Source: an uncultured Prevotella sp.
Lineage (GTDB): Bacteria > Bacteroidota > Bacteroidia > Bacteroidales > Bacteroidaceae
Reading direction: 5' to 3'
Length of the DNA stretch: 64,000 nucleotides
Assembly (NCBI GenBank): GCA_944319815.1
Contig: CALUEX010000048.1
Span: 140,673-204,672, forward strand
Shown here: positions 7,472 to 59,658 of the stretch, in pieces
Layout: every line of letters starts with the position of its first letter
Position numbering within the stretch: position 1 is the first letter of the stretch
Program-made: the position numbers and the translations under genes
Notes under the pieces: generated by a model
Seen by the model: only the letters and a program-made list of their open reading frames with translations
Database searches by the model: none
Told to the model about the DNA's origin: nothing

Positions 7472-7580
7472 TATAAGCCCGTCCTTAGTCTACCGTGCAG
7501 CCGGAAAAAGCCATGCATACACCGATTGAAAAAGGACGGACTTATATAAAACAAAAATTGATTGTCTCACGACAACCAAT
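7472..7580. repeat. Two inverted repeats in the 7.3-7.7 kb gap
   Basis: Outer pair: 15-nt arms 7472-7486 and 7532-7546, one mismatch, enclosing 45 nt. Next to it: a 10-bp hairpin (7557-7566 with 7571-7580, one mismatch, 4-nt loop) followed by CTTTTATT on the plus strand. The 7305-7679 gap has no credible gene. The hairpins may end the DUF3256 transcript or mark a small RNA; not resolvable here. Confidence 0.45.
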
Positions 7581-7679
7581 CTTTTATTAACCTTAATAAT
7601 CTAATACCATGAAAAACACGATGCAAAGGTATGAATAAATCTCATATCTGCAAAATATTCGAATGGAAATATCTTATTT

Positions 7680-9721: not shown

Positions 9722-10459
9722 TACACTGCGCTACACGGTATTGACGGCCAAGCCTTAACATAACAAAGAATTAAGCCGCAAAGCCATAAAAACCGCACAA
9801 CCGTAACTTTTTCAACGTGCAATATTACGATTTTATTTTGACATAGGCAATTAAAAACCAACTTAACTGAACATAAACATCAATATTATTGTTAAATATT
9901 ACAAACATAGTTATCGTGTGAAATATTATTTGACGCATCGAGAAGGTCGTCGGCCAAGTTAACGGCTGAGTTGCAGCCGAATTACTCCATTTTTGCAGAT
10001 ATTACATAAACGCCTGTAAACCAAAGTTTTAAACCACGAACAGATTTAGACTGAACACTATCAAAACAACAAAACAGGTGAATTTATGCCACAATAGGCC
10101 GTATTTTACTTTTCTCAATGCCGCAAAATGCGATGCAAAAGGTATCCTATAACAAGACAAAAGGGCACGTTTCACAAAACAACAAGCCATAAAAAGCCAC
10201 AAAGACGACCATCATCAAGACATTTTACGACCTTTAACGGCACGGCTGTTCCTATTTTTACGATTTACGGTGTAATAGAAAAAGAAAAGGCGACAAGCAC
10301 CATCTATATAAATATTGTTAAGCCCCATCAAGGCACGTAGCCATTGGCACGATGATTGTTCGAATGTGCGTTTTCCACCGAAAAACACCACCAAAACAAG
10401 CGTAAACAGGCCTCAATAATAAAAAATATAAAGAATTGGATAAAATTTTGCCAAAAACA
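9722..10459. other. Intergenic region between the CoA ligase and the tRNA genes
   Basis: About 740 nt, AT-rich, no gene I would support. Near 9760-9815 a one-sided run of degenerate 8-nt words (AAGCCGCA, AAGCCATA and similar) lies upstream of the ligase. A two-unit 22-nt palindrome array is at 10137-10178. Confidence 0.5.
10137..10178. repeat. 22-nt phased palindrome array (2 units)
   Basis: AAAAGG starts at 10137 and 10159, exactly 22 nt apart, each followed by a degenerate CC/GTTTC half. These are degenerate copies of the AAAAGG-N3-CCTTTT unit seen at four other loci. Confidence 0.55.
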
Positions 10460-13537: not shown

Positions 13538-13624
13538 TTAAGAAGCAAGAATTAAAAAGGCAAGCTTTTGGGATATAGTTCTTATACGCAAGACTCTCTT
13601 AATTCCCGGCTTCTTGCTTTTTGC
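13538..13624. repeat. Degenerate heptamer inverted repeat between glycogen synthase and phosphorylase
   Basis: Left arm words TTAAGAA, GCAAGAA, TTAAAAA, GGCAAG (13538-13564). The right arm (about 13595-13624) reads CTCTTAA, TTCCCGG, CTTCTTG, CTTTTTG and overlaps the synthase 3' end. A weaker example of the junction repeat family. Confidence 0.4.
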
Positions 13625-28595: not shown

Positions 28596-28685
28596 CAAGA
28601 GGGCGTGTTTTGCATTGCAAAACACGCCCTCTTGCATTCCCACTCGTGCCCTTTTGCAAAGCGAAAAGGCACGTTTTACAAATAC
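28596..28685. repeat. 22-nt phased palindrome array (4 degenerate units)
   Basis: Unit starts near 28597, 28619, 28642 and 28664. The first two form a 39-nt near-palindrome (19-nt arms 28596-28614 and 28616-28634). The last reads AAAAGGCACGTTTTAC. Compare arrays at 10137, 46923, 53471 and 59577. Confidence 0.6.
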
Positions 28686-45121: not shown

Positions 45122-45161
45122 TGTTTAAGGTTTTAAGGTTATGAGGTTATAGGGTTTTGGG
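45122..45161 (-). repeat. Octamer repeat filling the methyltransferase-nuclease spacer
   Basis: On the minus strand the junction reads as tandem 8-mers: CCTATAAC, CTCATAAC, CTTAAAAC, CTTAAACA. The methyltransferase stop TAA lies in the first unit and the nuclease ATG follows the last. One-armed; no inverted mate seen. Confidence 0.7.
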
Positions 45162-46223
45162 GTGCTTGTTGCGGATAAAGACTCTACTATATTGCCGTTT
45201 TCCATTTACGATACCACACCCTCCCCTATCGTCAGGATGAATGGTGTAACCAATTCTATTCAATACTTCCTTGGGAGTTGACGCTCGCGTGTTTCCACTC
45301 GCTTGCCATACTATTTCAAATTGATTGGGACAATATTTATCAAGGAATGTTATTGGAACTCCCATCAACCCTGAATAATCGCAAGGTATGTCTTGAGTTC
45401 TGTTTACATTTATTGCATCATAATTTTCATACTTTGGATATTCTTCAGGAGAATAATGACAGACCAAATCTAATTCTTCATTTCGTTTCGGTATCTCTAA
45501 ATTCGTAAACCAATGAACGCCAGAGACCCTAATCATACCTTCACGATGGTCACTTGCTGTTGCTACATCTTCATACGGAGAAAAGAAATGTGCTGCAGCT
45601 CCCTTAAAACCATATCCAAACCATACTTTATTGTTTATTATCAAAGGAAAAATATCTTTATATATGGCATTCCCTTGTTTTCCTATTATCAGAAACTTTT
45701 TATCATACTTCACAAGCTGCCCTATATACTCACGGAACAAGGAGAACGGAGGATTGGTGACAACAATATCTGCCTGTTTTAGCAATTCGATGCACTCACG
45801 AGAGCGGAAATCTCCTGTTTCAAGCGTGGAAATCACGTTCTTGTCATTCTTCAACAAATATTGCACATCCGAAAGGTCTACTGCCCCGTCGCCGTTCAAA
45901 TCTTTCACCTCGGTAATTTCCACTTTATAGGCAATTCGTTTGGGTTCTTCATCATCCCATTTGAACAGCAACGGCAGTTCATTGCCTTGTACGGGTGAGC
46001 CGTTATAGCAGGTACAGATGAGCTTTCGCAGCCCAAGCTGGTTGAAACGCAAGGCAAAATACTTGAAAAAGTTGCTTTCGTAAGGGTCATCACAGTTGCA
46101 AAGTACCGTCTTACCACGAAAATGCGACCAGTAATGTTGCAGCTCGCGCTCAATATCGGACATCTGCGTATAAAACTCGTCCTTCTTGGCGCGCTTTGCC
46201 AAATTAAGGTTTTTGTTTGCCAT
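45147..46223 (-). CDS. M.EcoRI-family adenine methyltransferase
   Basis: 358 residues. Close in order to my memory of M.EcoRI: KKDEFYTQMSDIERELQHY, NCDDPYESNFFKYFA, the catalytic TNPPFSLFREY (156-166, NPPF motif), KYDKKFLIIG, PKYENYDAINVNRTQDIPCDYSGLMGVPITFL. Methylates adenine with SAM; M.EcoRI acts on GAATTC, but the target here is unknown. Residues 108-119 (DLNGDGAVDLSD) look like a dockerin/EF-hand calcium loop, absent from M.EcoRI as I remember it. The 3' two-thirds of the gene is AT-rich compared with its neighbours, a sign of transfer. A hairpin (minus-strand GATAGTTTA ... TAAACTATC) lies just before the start codon. Confidence 0.87.
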   Translation of the reverse strand: MANKNLNLAKRAKKDEFYTQMSDIERELQHYWSHFRGKTVLCNCDDPYESNFFKYFALRFNQLGLRKLICTCYNGSPVQGNELPLLFKWDDEEPKRIAYKVEITEVKDLNGDGAVDLSDVQYLLKNDKNVISTLETGDFRSRECIELLKQADIVVTNPPFSLFREYIGQLVKYDKKFLIIGKQGNAIYKDIFPLIINNKVWFGYGFKGAAAHFFSPYEDVATASDHREGMIRVSGVHWFTNLEIPKRNEELDLVCHYSPEEYPKYENYDAINVNRTQDIPCDYSGLMGVPITFLDKYCPNQFEIVWQASGNTRASTPKEVLNRIGYTIHPDDRGGCGIVNGKRQYSRVFIRNKHPKTL

Positions 46224-46920: not shown

Positions 46921-46985
46921 GCAAAAGGATACCTTTTACGCGATAAAAGGGCATCTTTTACTGGCTAAAAGGAGGCATATTGAGA
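46921..46985. repeat. 22-nt phased palindrome array (3 units)
   Basis: AAAAGG at 46923, 46945 and 46967, exactly 22 nt apart; the first two continue as N3-CCTTTTAC or close to it. Confidence 0.75.
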
Positions 46986-47062
46986 ACACGTTGACTATCA
47001 ACGAATTACGGGAACGGCACAAATGGAATTTAAATTTGCCGTTGCATTTCTTGCGGTTTTGC

Positions 47063-47093
47063 TTTGCGTTTATTGGAATTTTGCATACCTTTG
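47063..47093 (+). promoter_or_regulatory. Promoter of the cobalamin uptake operon
   Basis: TTTG (47063-47066), exactly 19 nt, TACCTTTG (47086-47093), placing the transcript start just before the riboswitch. Confidence 0.85.
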
Positions 47094-47102
47094 CACACGC
47101 TG

Positions 47103-47262
47103 ATTGGTTCACGCATGAGTGATTAAAAGGGAAACGAGTGAAAATCCCGTACAGTCCCGCTGCTGTGAGCTGTCATTATCGCGACGGACAACACGCCACT
47201 GGCACAGTTTTTTAGCCGGGAAGGCAGTCCGACGAGGACAGCGTAGTCAGAAGACCTGCCGT
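47103..47262 (+). promoter_or_regulatory. Cobalamin riboswitch
   Basis: Core elements in order: an initial paired GGTTCACGCATGAGTG region, GGGAAACGAGTGAAAATCCC, CAGTCCCGCTGCTGTGA, CACTGGCACAGTTTTTTAGCCGGGAAGGCAGTCCG, and the B12 box AGTCAGAAGACCTGCC (47245-47260). Between it and the btuB start, CACC can pair with GGTG around the AGGAAGG ribosome site, so binding of B12 likely shuts translation. No T-rich terminator seen. Confidence 0.95.
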
Positions 47263-47305
47263 CAGTTATGTCTAATTCACCGCTTCGAGGAAGGTGGTGT
47301 ATTAT

Positions 47306-53430: not shown

Positions 53431-53470
53431 ACAGGCTAATGGCATAACACATTGTGAACCAAGCAAATAT

Positions 53471-53558
53471 GAAAGGGCATCTTTTACGCTGTAAAAGGTG
53501 CCCTTTTTACAAGCAAAAGGCCACCTTTCGCATCACGAAAGGTGGCCTTCAGTAAATC
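53471..53558. repeat. 22-nt phased palindrome array (4 units) between convergent genes
   Basis: The AAAAGG-equivalent starts are 53471, 53493, 53515 and 53537, exactly 22 nt apart. Pairs fold as two hairpins: 53472-53487 with 53491-53506, and 53517-53530 with 53536-53549 (14 bp perfect). The first is followed by TTTTTA, so it may also end the nitroreductase transcript. Confidence 0.85.
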
Positions 53559-59464: not shown

Positions 59465-59574
59465 ATAAATTACCCCCAACGGACATAACAAAAAGCAATA
59501 TTTAACGTGACTTCGGCATTTTTTTGGACAGCGATAAGCCATTAACGGCTATTACGCTGGAAACCAGACGGTTT

Positions 59575-59658
59575 GCAAAAGGGCACCTTTTACCTTGCAA
59601 AAGGGCATCTCTTAAAACGCAAAAGGGCACCTTTTAAATTACAAAAGGTGCCCTTTCG
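59575..59658. repeat. 22-nt phased palindrome array (3 direct units plus an inverted one)
   Basis: AAAAGG at 59577, 59599 and 59621, exactly 22 nt apart, each with CA(C/T)CTTTT or similar. An inverted unit at 59643-59656 pairs with the third (14-bp perfect stem). Between the DUF4468 and uvrB genes. Confidence 0.85.

Follow-up and report, generated by a model that had tools for sequence, protein, structure and literature searches.

Intergenic palindromic repeats of the REP/BIME kind are best known from Proteobacteria, and the BIME-1/RIB elements among them also go by the name RIP. BIMEs consist of REPs set at regular intervals in alternating orientation, and in BIME-1 the sequence between the REPs interacts with IHF, according to the excerpted text of PMC2817692. 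The IHF consensus appears as TAAnnnnTTGATW and WATCAAnnnnTTR in part of another paper (PMC10380432); a table excerpted from PMC6907758 lists WATCAAnnnnTTR against H-NS, and its rows look swapped. Correia/NEMIS elements of Neisseria are about 107 or 155 bp long; the longer form lies between genes in almost every case and is bound by IHF in vitro, as stated in sections of PMC2229807. Within the Bacteroidales, BrickBuilt MITEs of Porphyromonas gingivalis consist of 23-nt tandem units (PMC4596501, in part), while PINSR is a 188-bp intergenic repeat of the Prevotella intermedia group, with 177 and 184 copies in two strains and, in the portion available, no terminal inverted repeats (PMC4755523).

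The arrays described here were found in a window of 64,000 nucleotides, the whole stretch of DNA analysed, from an uncultured Prevotella genome of 2.78 Mb (G000). On the best reading, the known elements that they most resemble in composition are the BIME-1/RIB elements of E. coli, which bind IHF. Like these, they are multi-copy and intergenic and combine inverted palindromic units with an IHF consensus, the Prevotella site being putative. Unlike them, the Prevotella element carries its IHF-type site at one end rather than between two REPs, has four short units at a 22-nt pitch, shows no RAYT association and belongs to another phylum. RIBs reportedly lie at the 3' ends of transcription units (an observation attributed to Boccard and Prentki, 1993), whereas the Prevotella element also occurs between divergent genes.

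REPINs and RAYT-mobilised REP doublets are likewise built of short, hairpin-forming palindromes in inverted pairs, but a Y1 transposase is unmatched in 8 of the 12 motif-rich Prevotella genomes, and that of G000 stands beside a different palindrome. Correia/NEMIS elements are similar in size, intergenic and linked to IHF (a predicted link in Prevotella); they differ in having 24-bp terminal inverted repeats and target duplication, neither of which was seen in the Prevotella element, and the sections available of that account report no 22-nt units (PMC2229807). BrickBuilt differs in having a leader, a tail, terminal inverted repeats and up to 18 repeats per element, as the excerpted description has it, and its main text contains neither 'palindrom' nor 'hairpin' (PMC4596501). 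PINSR shares the genus and the intergenic location, as known from a partial description rather than from its sequence (PMC4755523). No description of the Prevotella element was found in the literature searched, which was mainly open-access, included parts of PMC5771137, PMC2267715 and PMC3733652, and covered PINSR by description only.

The reading preferred here, with a probability of about 0.6, is that the arrays are composite elements of a REP/BIME type, short, intergenic and non-coding, with an IHF-type head and paired hairpins, and that their role is mainly structural. A complete element is about 115 bp long. Its head carries the IHF consensus YAANNNNTTGATW, typically inside TAAC-NNN-TTGATNATCAA, and is followed by four 15-nt palindromic units at a 22-nt pitch. 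Units 1:2 and 3:4 pair to give two hairpins in a row, at a 44-nt pitch, each with a 3-nt loop and a stem that reaches about 17 bp at most.

Arrays in the window

A scan of the window for AAAAGGNNNCCTTTT at up to 2 mismatches returned 14 matches, against a mean of 3.49 and a maximum of 8 in 100 dinucleotide shuffles. The preliminary description had placed arrays of this palindrome, phased at 22 nt, at five intergenic loci. Those at 53471, 59577, 46923 and 10137 were recovered, the second of them with its three reported units and a fourth, at 59643, that had been missed. The fifth, near 28597, is real but differs in sequence, consisting of a hairpin with 19-nt arms and an imperfect second one. 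The accompanying remark that 22 bp is about two helical turns holds, as does the exclusion of a CRISPR, since the spacers are 7 nt rather than long and unique. The features are listed below by window position, with a point for strand where none applies; the second diverged hairpin, the head at 53445 and the palindrome at 59557 were read directly from the sequence.

10137..10173, strand., array of two degenerate units (10137/10159), 2 mismatches each, 22-nt pitch
28596..28634, strand., first hairpin of the diverged element, its 19-nt arms being 100% complementary
28645..28673, strand., diverged element, second hairpin, CGTGCCCTTTTGC AAA GCGAAAAGGCACG, imperfect
46923..46981, strand., array of three units (46923/46945/46967) between divergent genes, EcoRI-type methylase (-) and TonB-dependent receptor (+)
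46996..47008, strand +, exact IHF consensus, head of the 46923 array, WATCAANNNNTTR (TATCAACGAATTA)
53445..53457, strand -, degenerate IHF-type head of the 53471 array, TAA-N4-TTGTGA
53471..53551, strand., array of four units at 22-nt pitch forming two hairpins; units 53471/53493/53515 at up to 2 mismatches, 53537 with 3; neighbours a nitroreductase-family gene (+) and an FtsX/MacB-type permease gene (-)
53472-53487 / 53491-53506, arms of hairpin U1:U2 of the 53471 array
53517-53530 / 53536-53549, arms of hairpin U3:U4 of the 53471 array
59557..59567, strand., palindrome CTGGAAACCAG by the 59577 array, not the IHF consensus
59577..59657, strand., array of four units (59577/59599/59621/59643); U3:U4 a perfect hairpin, arms 59622-59635 / 59643-59656; neighbours uvrB (-) and a DUF4468 gene (-)

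The arms of the two hairpins in the 53471 array are 94% and 100% complementary. Its head agrees with YAANNNNTTGATW at 7 of 9 specified positions, a weak and inexact match. The centre of CTGGAAACCAG lies 22 bp from that of the first unit of the 59577 array, and this palindrome is a possible degenerate head. Further single matches to AAAAGGNNNCCTTTT at up to 2 mismatches occur at 13555 and 15663. A search of Rfam returned no family at the arrays.

Several other features of the window were also recorded. A cobalamin riboswitch (RF00174, 98 bits) occupies 47088-47277, just upstream of a TonB-dependent receptor gene; a distance of 80 bp separates it from the IHF-type head at the 46923 array. The EcoRI-type adenine methylase gene spans 45147-46223 on the minus strand (PF13651, E 6e-146), and a match to the FopS paralogous sRNA family (RF04319) lies at 7548-7619, also on the minus strand.

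Pitch, pairing and head of the element

The 22-nt register proposed for the window extends through the genome and is commoner than chance. G000 holds 80 exact copies of AAAAGGNNNCCTTTT and 325 at up to 1 mismatch, against 0 and 13 for the reversed control motif TTTTCCNNNGGAAAA. A survey of 864 kb (40 stretches plus the window) found 56 arrays, of which 17 have four units, 14 have three, 15 have two and 10 are single, with none longer than four; extrapolating from 46 per 864 kb gives about 150 loci in the genome. In the same 864 kb, distances from sites at up to 1 mismatch to neighbours at up to 3 fall at 22 (85), 44 (47) and 66 (17). Smaller shoulders appear at 21 (19) and 43 (7), and 28 were one-base shifts of the same site. 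A motif-blind scan of all lags from 12 to 60 also ranked lag 22 first, in 24 of 36 arrays at a strict threshold and 51 of 124 at a looser one. Of the 24, 17 contain a unit of the AAAAGGNNNCCTTTT family and seven are other repeats or too diverged. Other lag-22 repeats of the GACGAGGGACAAGC type occur in G000 near L020 19433, L021 14478 and L035 174.

The arms of the units read RAAAGG...CCTTTY and the spacers RY-N3-RY, so that an 8-mer and its complement alternate every 11 bp with variable triplets between them. The centre triplets of adjacent units are reverse-complementary in 31 of 93 cases in G000 (11.9+-3.0 when shuffled) and in 107 of 351 in other species (30.6+-5.1); none of 1000 shuffles reached either value. 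Adjacent spacer triplets show no such excess (G000 1/47 against 1.4; other species 10/221 against 8.0). Within four-unit arrays of other species, the end pairs 1:2 and 3:4 are complementary in 75 of 176 cases and the middle pair 2:3 in 8 of 88 (Fisher 8.5e-9); the G000 figures, 13/32 and 2/16, are borderline alone (p 0.057). When 39 four-unit arrays are oriented by their heads, pairs 1:2, 2:3 and 3:4 are complementary in 18, 1 and 15. Since 1:2 and 3:4 match and 2:3 stays at chance level in both sources, the element is read as two tandem hairpins, with the spacer triplet as the loop. Folding with RNA parameters gives a mean z of -4.9, below -2 in 26 of 31 arrays.

The pairing is not universal: 6 of 16 four-unit arrays in G000 and 28 of 88 elsewhere lack any fully complementary neighbour pair. 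In other species, identical neighbour centres are also raised (57 against 30.3 shuffled), as are complementary centres at distances 2 and 3 and complementary spacers at distance 2 (12/109 against 4.0; spacer 1 with 3 in 11 of 86 four-unit arrays). These shuffles pool species with different preferred triplets, which makes G000 alone the cleaner test. Four units are found in 87 of the 130 arrays from other species, which were chosen by a two-unit pattern, and five in 11.

The element is polar. In a set of 186 arrays that includes single units (56 from G000 and 130 from other species), 60 have a palindrome of the TGATNATCA type, at up to 1 mismatch, in the 11-bp register on exactly one side, and none has it on both sides, against 2 for the same number of offsets shifted by 4; the remaining 126 lack a recognisable head. 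With offsets unrestricted, the head palindrome starts mostly 10 nt beyond the array, then 21, then 9, and the first two values place its centre about 22 or 33 bp from that of the nearest unit. A logo anchored on exact heads with a strong array (the 21 of 29 at offset 10) gives TAACnnnTTGATAATCAAcnnnTTTGC and then four units, after which the signal fades, and its head signal contains the IHF consensus.

In G000, 17 of 46 arrays have an exact YAANNNNTTGATW no more than 60 bp away, against 72 of 3409 random intergenic windows and 30 of 3000 random windows of any kind; in other species 24 of 126 arrays do, against 10 of 3000. It is absent within that distance from 29 of the 46 and 102 of the 126. 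Changing its spacer from 4 to 3, 5 or 6 nt leaves 0, 0 and 1 of the 46 arrays in G000, and 2, 7 and 0 of the 126 in other species (random 4, 15 and 4 of 3000), where the 5-nt form is therefore mildly raised. G000 has five matches to PF00216 (HU/IHF); one is partial and weak, and two are adjacent, one of these lying within a longer open frame. From the sequence, the likeliest protein site is the putative IHF-type head beside the array, a feature absent from the preliminary description.

Distribution and changing unit sequences

A pattern scan of named genomes found at least 109 matching stretches. Among the matches listed, 103 of 109 are labelled Prevotella, Xylanibacter, Palleniella, Marseilla or Prevotellaceae, while the Chlorobium and proteobacterium matches look like ordinary terminators. 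Four belong to one MAG labelled Bacillota (JAMPFD01 contigs; L130, L133, L138, L155), which is probably mislabelled, since its locus L130 holds Prevotella-like DNA that matches G000 at 74-76% along 1.0-1.3 kb. In the genus of the window, 12 of 200 genomes have at least 8 exact copies of AAAAGGNNNCCTTTT (187 in the richest, G137) and the remainder at most 4; none of 57 sampled genomes from other genera of the family has more than 2. The preliminary description had also raised clustering by chromosomal position. None was seen in G056, the genome in which this was tested (32 exact sites on two chromosomes, KS p 0.65 and 0.59).

Exact matches to the head pattern GTAACNNNYTGATNATCAR occur in 111 of these 200 genomes, whereas the control was matched twice in total. 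Across the order, a looser pattern, YAANNNNTTGATWATCAR, is common (127 of 149 genomes), but when 30 such loci from six genomes in other families were inspected by eye, no array could be seen between about 75 bp ahead of the pattern and 100 bp beyond it. This order-wide enrichment is therefore not evidence for the element, and the idea of the head as a Bacteroidales-wide element was rejected.

Outside the window's species, the head and/or the 22-nt pitch seem to be kept with different units. For example, among 40 stretches around heads from 14 other species, judged by eye, some in G253, G061, G134, G143 and G226 have 22-nt units with another sequence; other stretches show a plain hairpin, and in still others no structure is evident. 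Lag 22 accounts for 10 of 11 arrays in the lag scan of G056, 3 of 5 in G176, 3 of 4 in G253, 2 of 4 in G120 and 2 of 7 in G181; at the strict threshold it gave none in G137, G105 and G084, and none in the controls G015 and G348. The scan is insensitive to diverged arrays: in 120 kb of G137 it found 0 at the strict and 3 at the looser threshold, where the motif finds 7. G056 holds at least three unrelated families at this pitch (L294-L300), for instance TTTTCATGAAAATAAATATTTC, with four units in 4 of 5 arrays, and G120 also carries a 22-nt family of different sequence. The IHF consensus stands near 0 of 5 arrays of the second family in G056, 0 of 2 in G120 and 2 of 4 in G253.

In G043, a control from a different genus of the family, the scan found one array at lag 22 and eight at 21. 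These eight arrays of at least two units (L321-L327) repeat the palindrome CAAACNATNGTTTG at a 21-nt pitch; six of them have four units, one has three and one has five, and there is one single unit besides. None of the eight has the IHF consensus, and no complementary neighbours were seen by eye in the rows inspected, for which reasons they are not filed with the Prevotella element.

Proposed structural role, possible mobility and other explanations

Under the preferred reading, an IHF/HU-family protein would bind and bend the head, and the palindromes would fold into hairpins or cruciforms when the DNA is supercoiled or single-stranded. In read-through transcripts they would fold as RNA hairpins. 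The element would serve mainly as a structural module for topology or transcript ends. The preliminary description's suggestions of nucleoid-protein sites or a short mobile repeat were in the right neighbourhood.

The strongest competitor, possible though at less than even odds, is a mobile non-autonomous element, MITE- or REPIN-like, whose transposase would recognise the hairpins and perhaps the IHF site, the present copies being remnants. Its polarity, limited size, many copies and patchy copy number within the genus would suit such an origin. So would the lack of any bias in gene orientation, a point raised in the preliminary description: in tandem regions the gene on the head side points toward the element in 18 cases and away in 19. 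Longer intergenic regions more often hold arrays (tandem 3/106 at 120-250 bp, 9/39 at 400-700 bp), the element's own length adding to these regions.

A small comparison of orthologous loci is relevant here. Nine forward pairs were placed, two of which (L066 and L125) were dropped for gaps of about 3 kb. Of the other seven, the array is clear in G000 at four (4-10 mismatches over three units), marginal at two (13 and 14 mismatches; minimum of 200 random 300-mers, 15) and without room at one. In the reverse direction, two of seven rows are clearly present (3 and 4 mismatches), four ambiguous (14-16) and one clearly absent: at C1 54608 against L110 the best three-unit score is 18 mismatches, where the random median is 19. 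This one absence favours mobility, while the positions kept in relatives at several places speak against it. So does the lack of near-identical copies among 16 four-unit elements of G000, which share at most 14 of 21 variable positions. Neither terminal inverted repeats nor a target duplication is apparent in the anchored logo or pairwise gaps, and no clean empty site was found.

The search for a transposase tracking the element was confined to Y1 and found none. A Y1 (RAYT/IS200-type) transposase was matched in 4 of the 12 motif-rich genomes and not in G137, the richest, and on this distribution RAYT/Y1 was rejected as the driver; two of the eight motif-rich genomes without a match are only 78% and 81% complete. 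The only Y1 gene of G000 (L180, contig C21, open frame 1432-1959) adjoins a different palindrome, and its 3.4-kb locus contains no array. The inverted palindrome that follows this gene is of the GGACATAATN2ATTATGTCC type, with repeats at about 1995-2110, and the locus has the look of a RAYT accompanied by a REP pair of its own.

That the arrays are intrinsic transcription terminators, perhaps working in both directions, is unlikely. The hairpins do have the A-tract/stem/T-tract form, and in tandem regions of G000 the array lies closer to the upstream gene's 3' end in 20 of 23 (p 0.0005), although promoter avoidance would likewise push elements that way and the gene starts are approximate. By a simple gene caller, 52 of the 56 G000 arrays are intergenic, three of the other four being single units. 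Of 45 placed arrays of at least two units, 23 are in tandem, 17 in divergent and 5 in convergent regions; as shares of regions of at least 120 bp, these are 23/217, 17/63 and 5/44. The many divergent placements count against terminators, as do the one-sided head with its IHF consensus and the usual limit of four units. With both sources pooled, 85 arrays are in tandem regions, 40 in divergent and 28 in convergent ones, the last being in the terminators' favour; another 13 are at the edge of a locus and 6 within ORFs. Of the pooled arrays, 9 lie between genes both pointing away and 9 between genes both pointing toward.

Operator arrays, bound cooperatively by one sequence-specific protein along one helix face, had been the main idea of the preliminary description and now appear quite unlikely. 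The exact 22-nt pitch and the conserved AAAAGG/CCTTTT arms of the palindromic units suit them. However, cooperative binding predicts neither the complementarity of the end pairs without that of 2:3, nor a pitch that other species keep with unrelated units, and about 150 extrapolated loci is a further point against it. Neutral minisatellites arising through slippage or hairpin template switching are very improbable, for although orthologues in L120 and G000 differ in array length by one 22-nt unit, the usual limit of four units, the one-sided head and the 11-bp register of head and units all argue against them.

Returning to the structural reading, the species-specific letters of the units seem to require past mobility or some coordinated rewriting. 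A broader and tentative proposal, which we consider possible rather than probable, is that the inherited feature is geometry rather than sequence: about four palindromes at a two-turn pitch, forming two hairpins, often with a bend of the IHF type at the head. Each lineage would then have its own unit sequence, and in some genomes several such families would coexist. This would make the element a chromosome-structure module in Prevotella, and perhaps in the wider Bacteroidaceae. If this is true, its reader would be shape-specific, either an IHF/HU-led nucleoprotein or a hairpin-specific enzyme. Unit sequence that changes under a constant pitch, with paired units and an IHF-type head, would allow a test for selection on the geometry of DNA, and the element family provides a marker set for studies of the nucleoid and of transcript ends in an abundant human-associated genus. 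As a minor observation, G219 carries 17 copies of the reversed motif that served as the control, perhaps another unit family.
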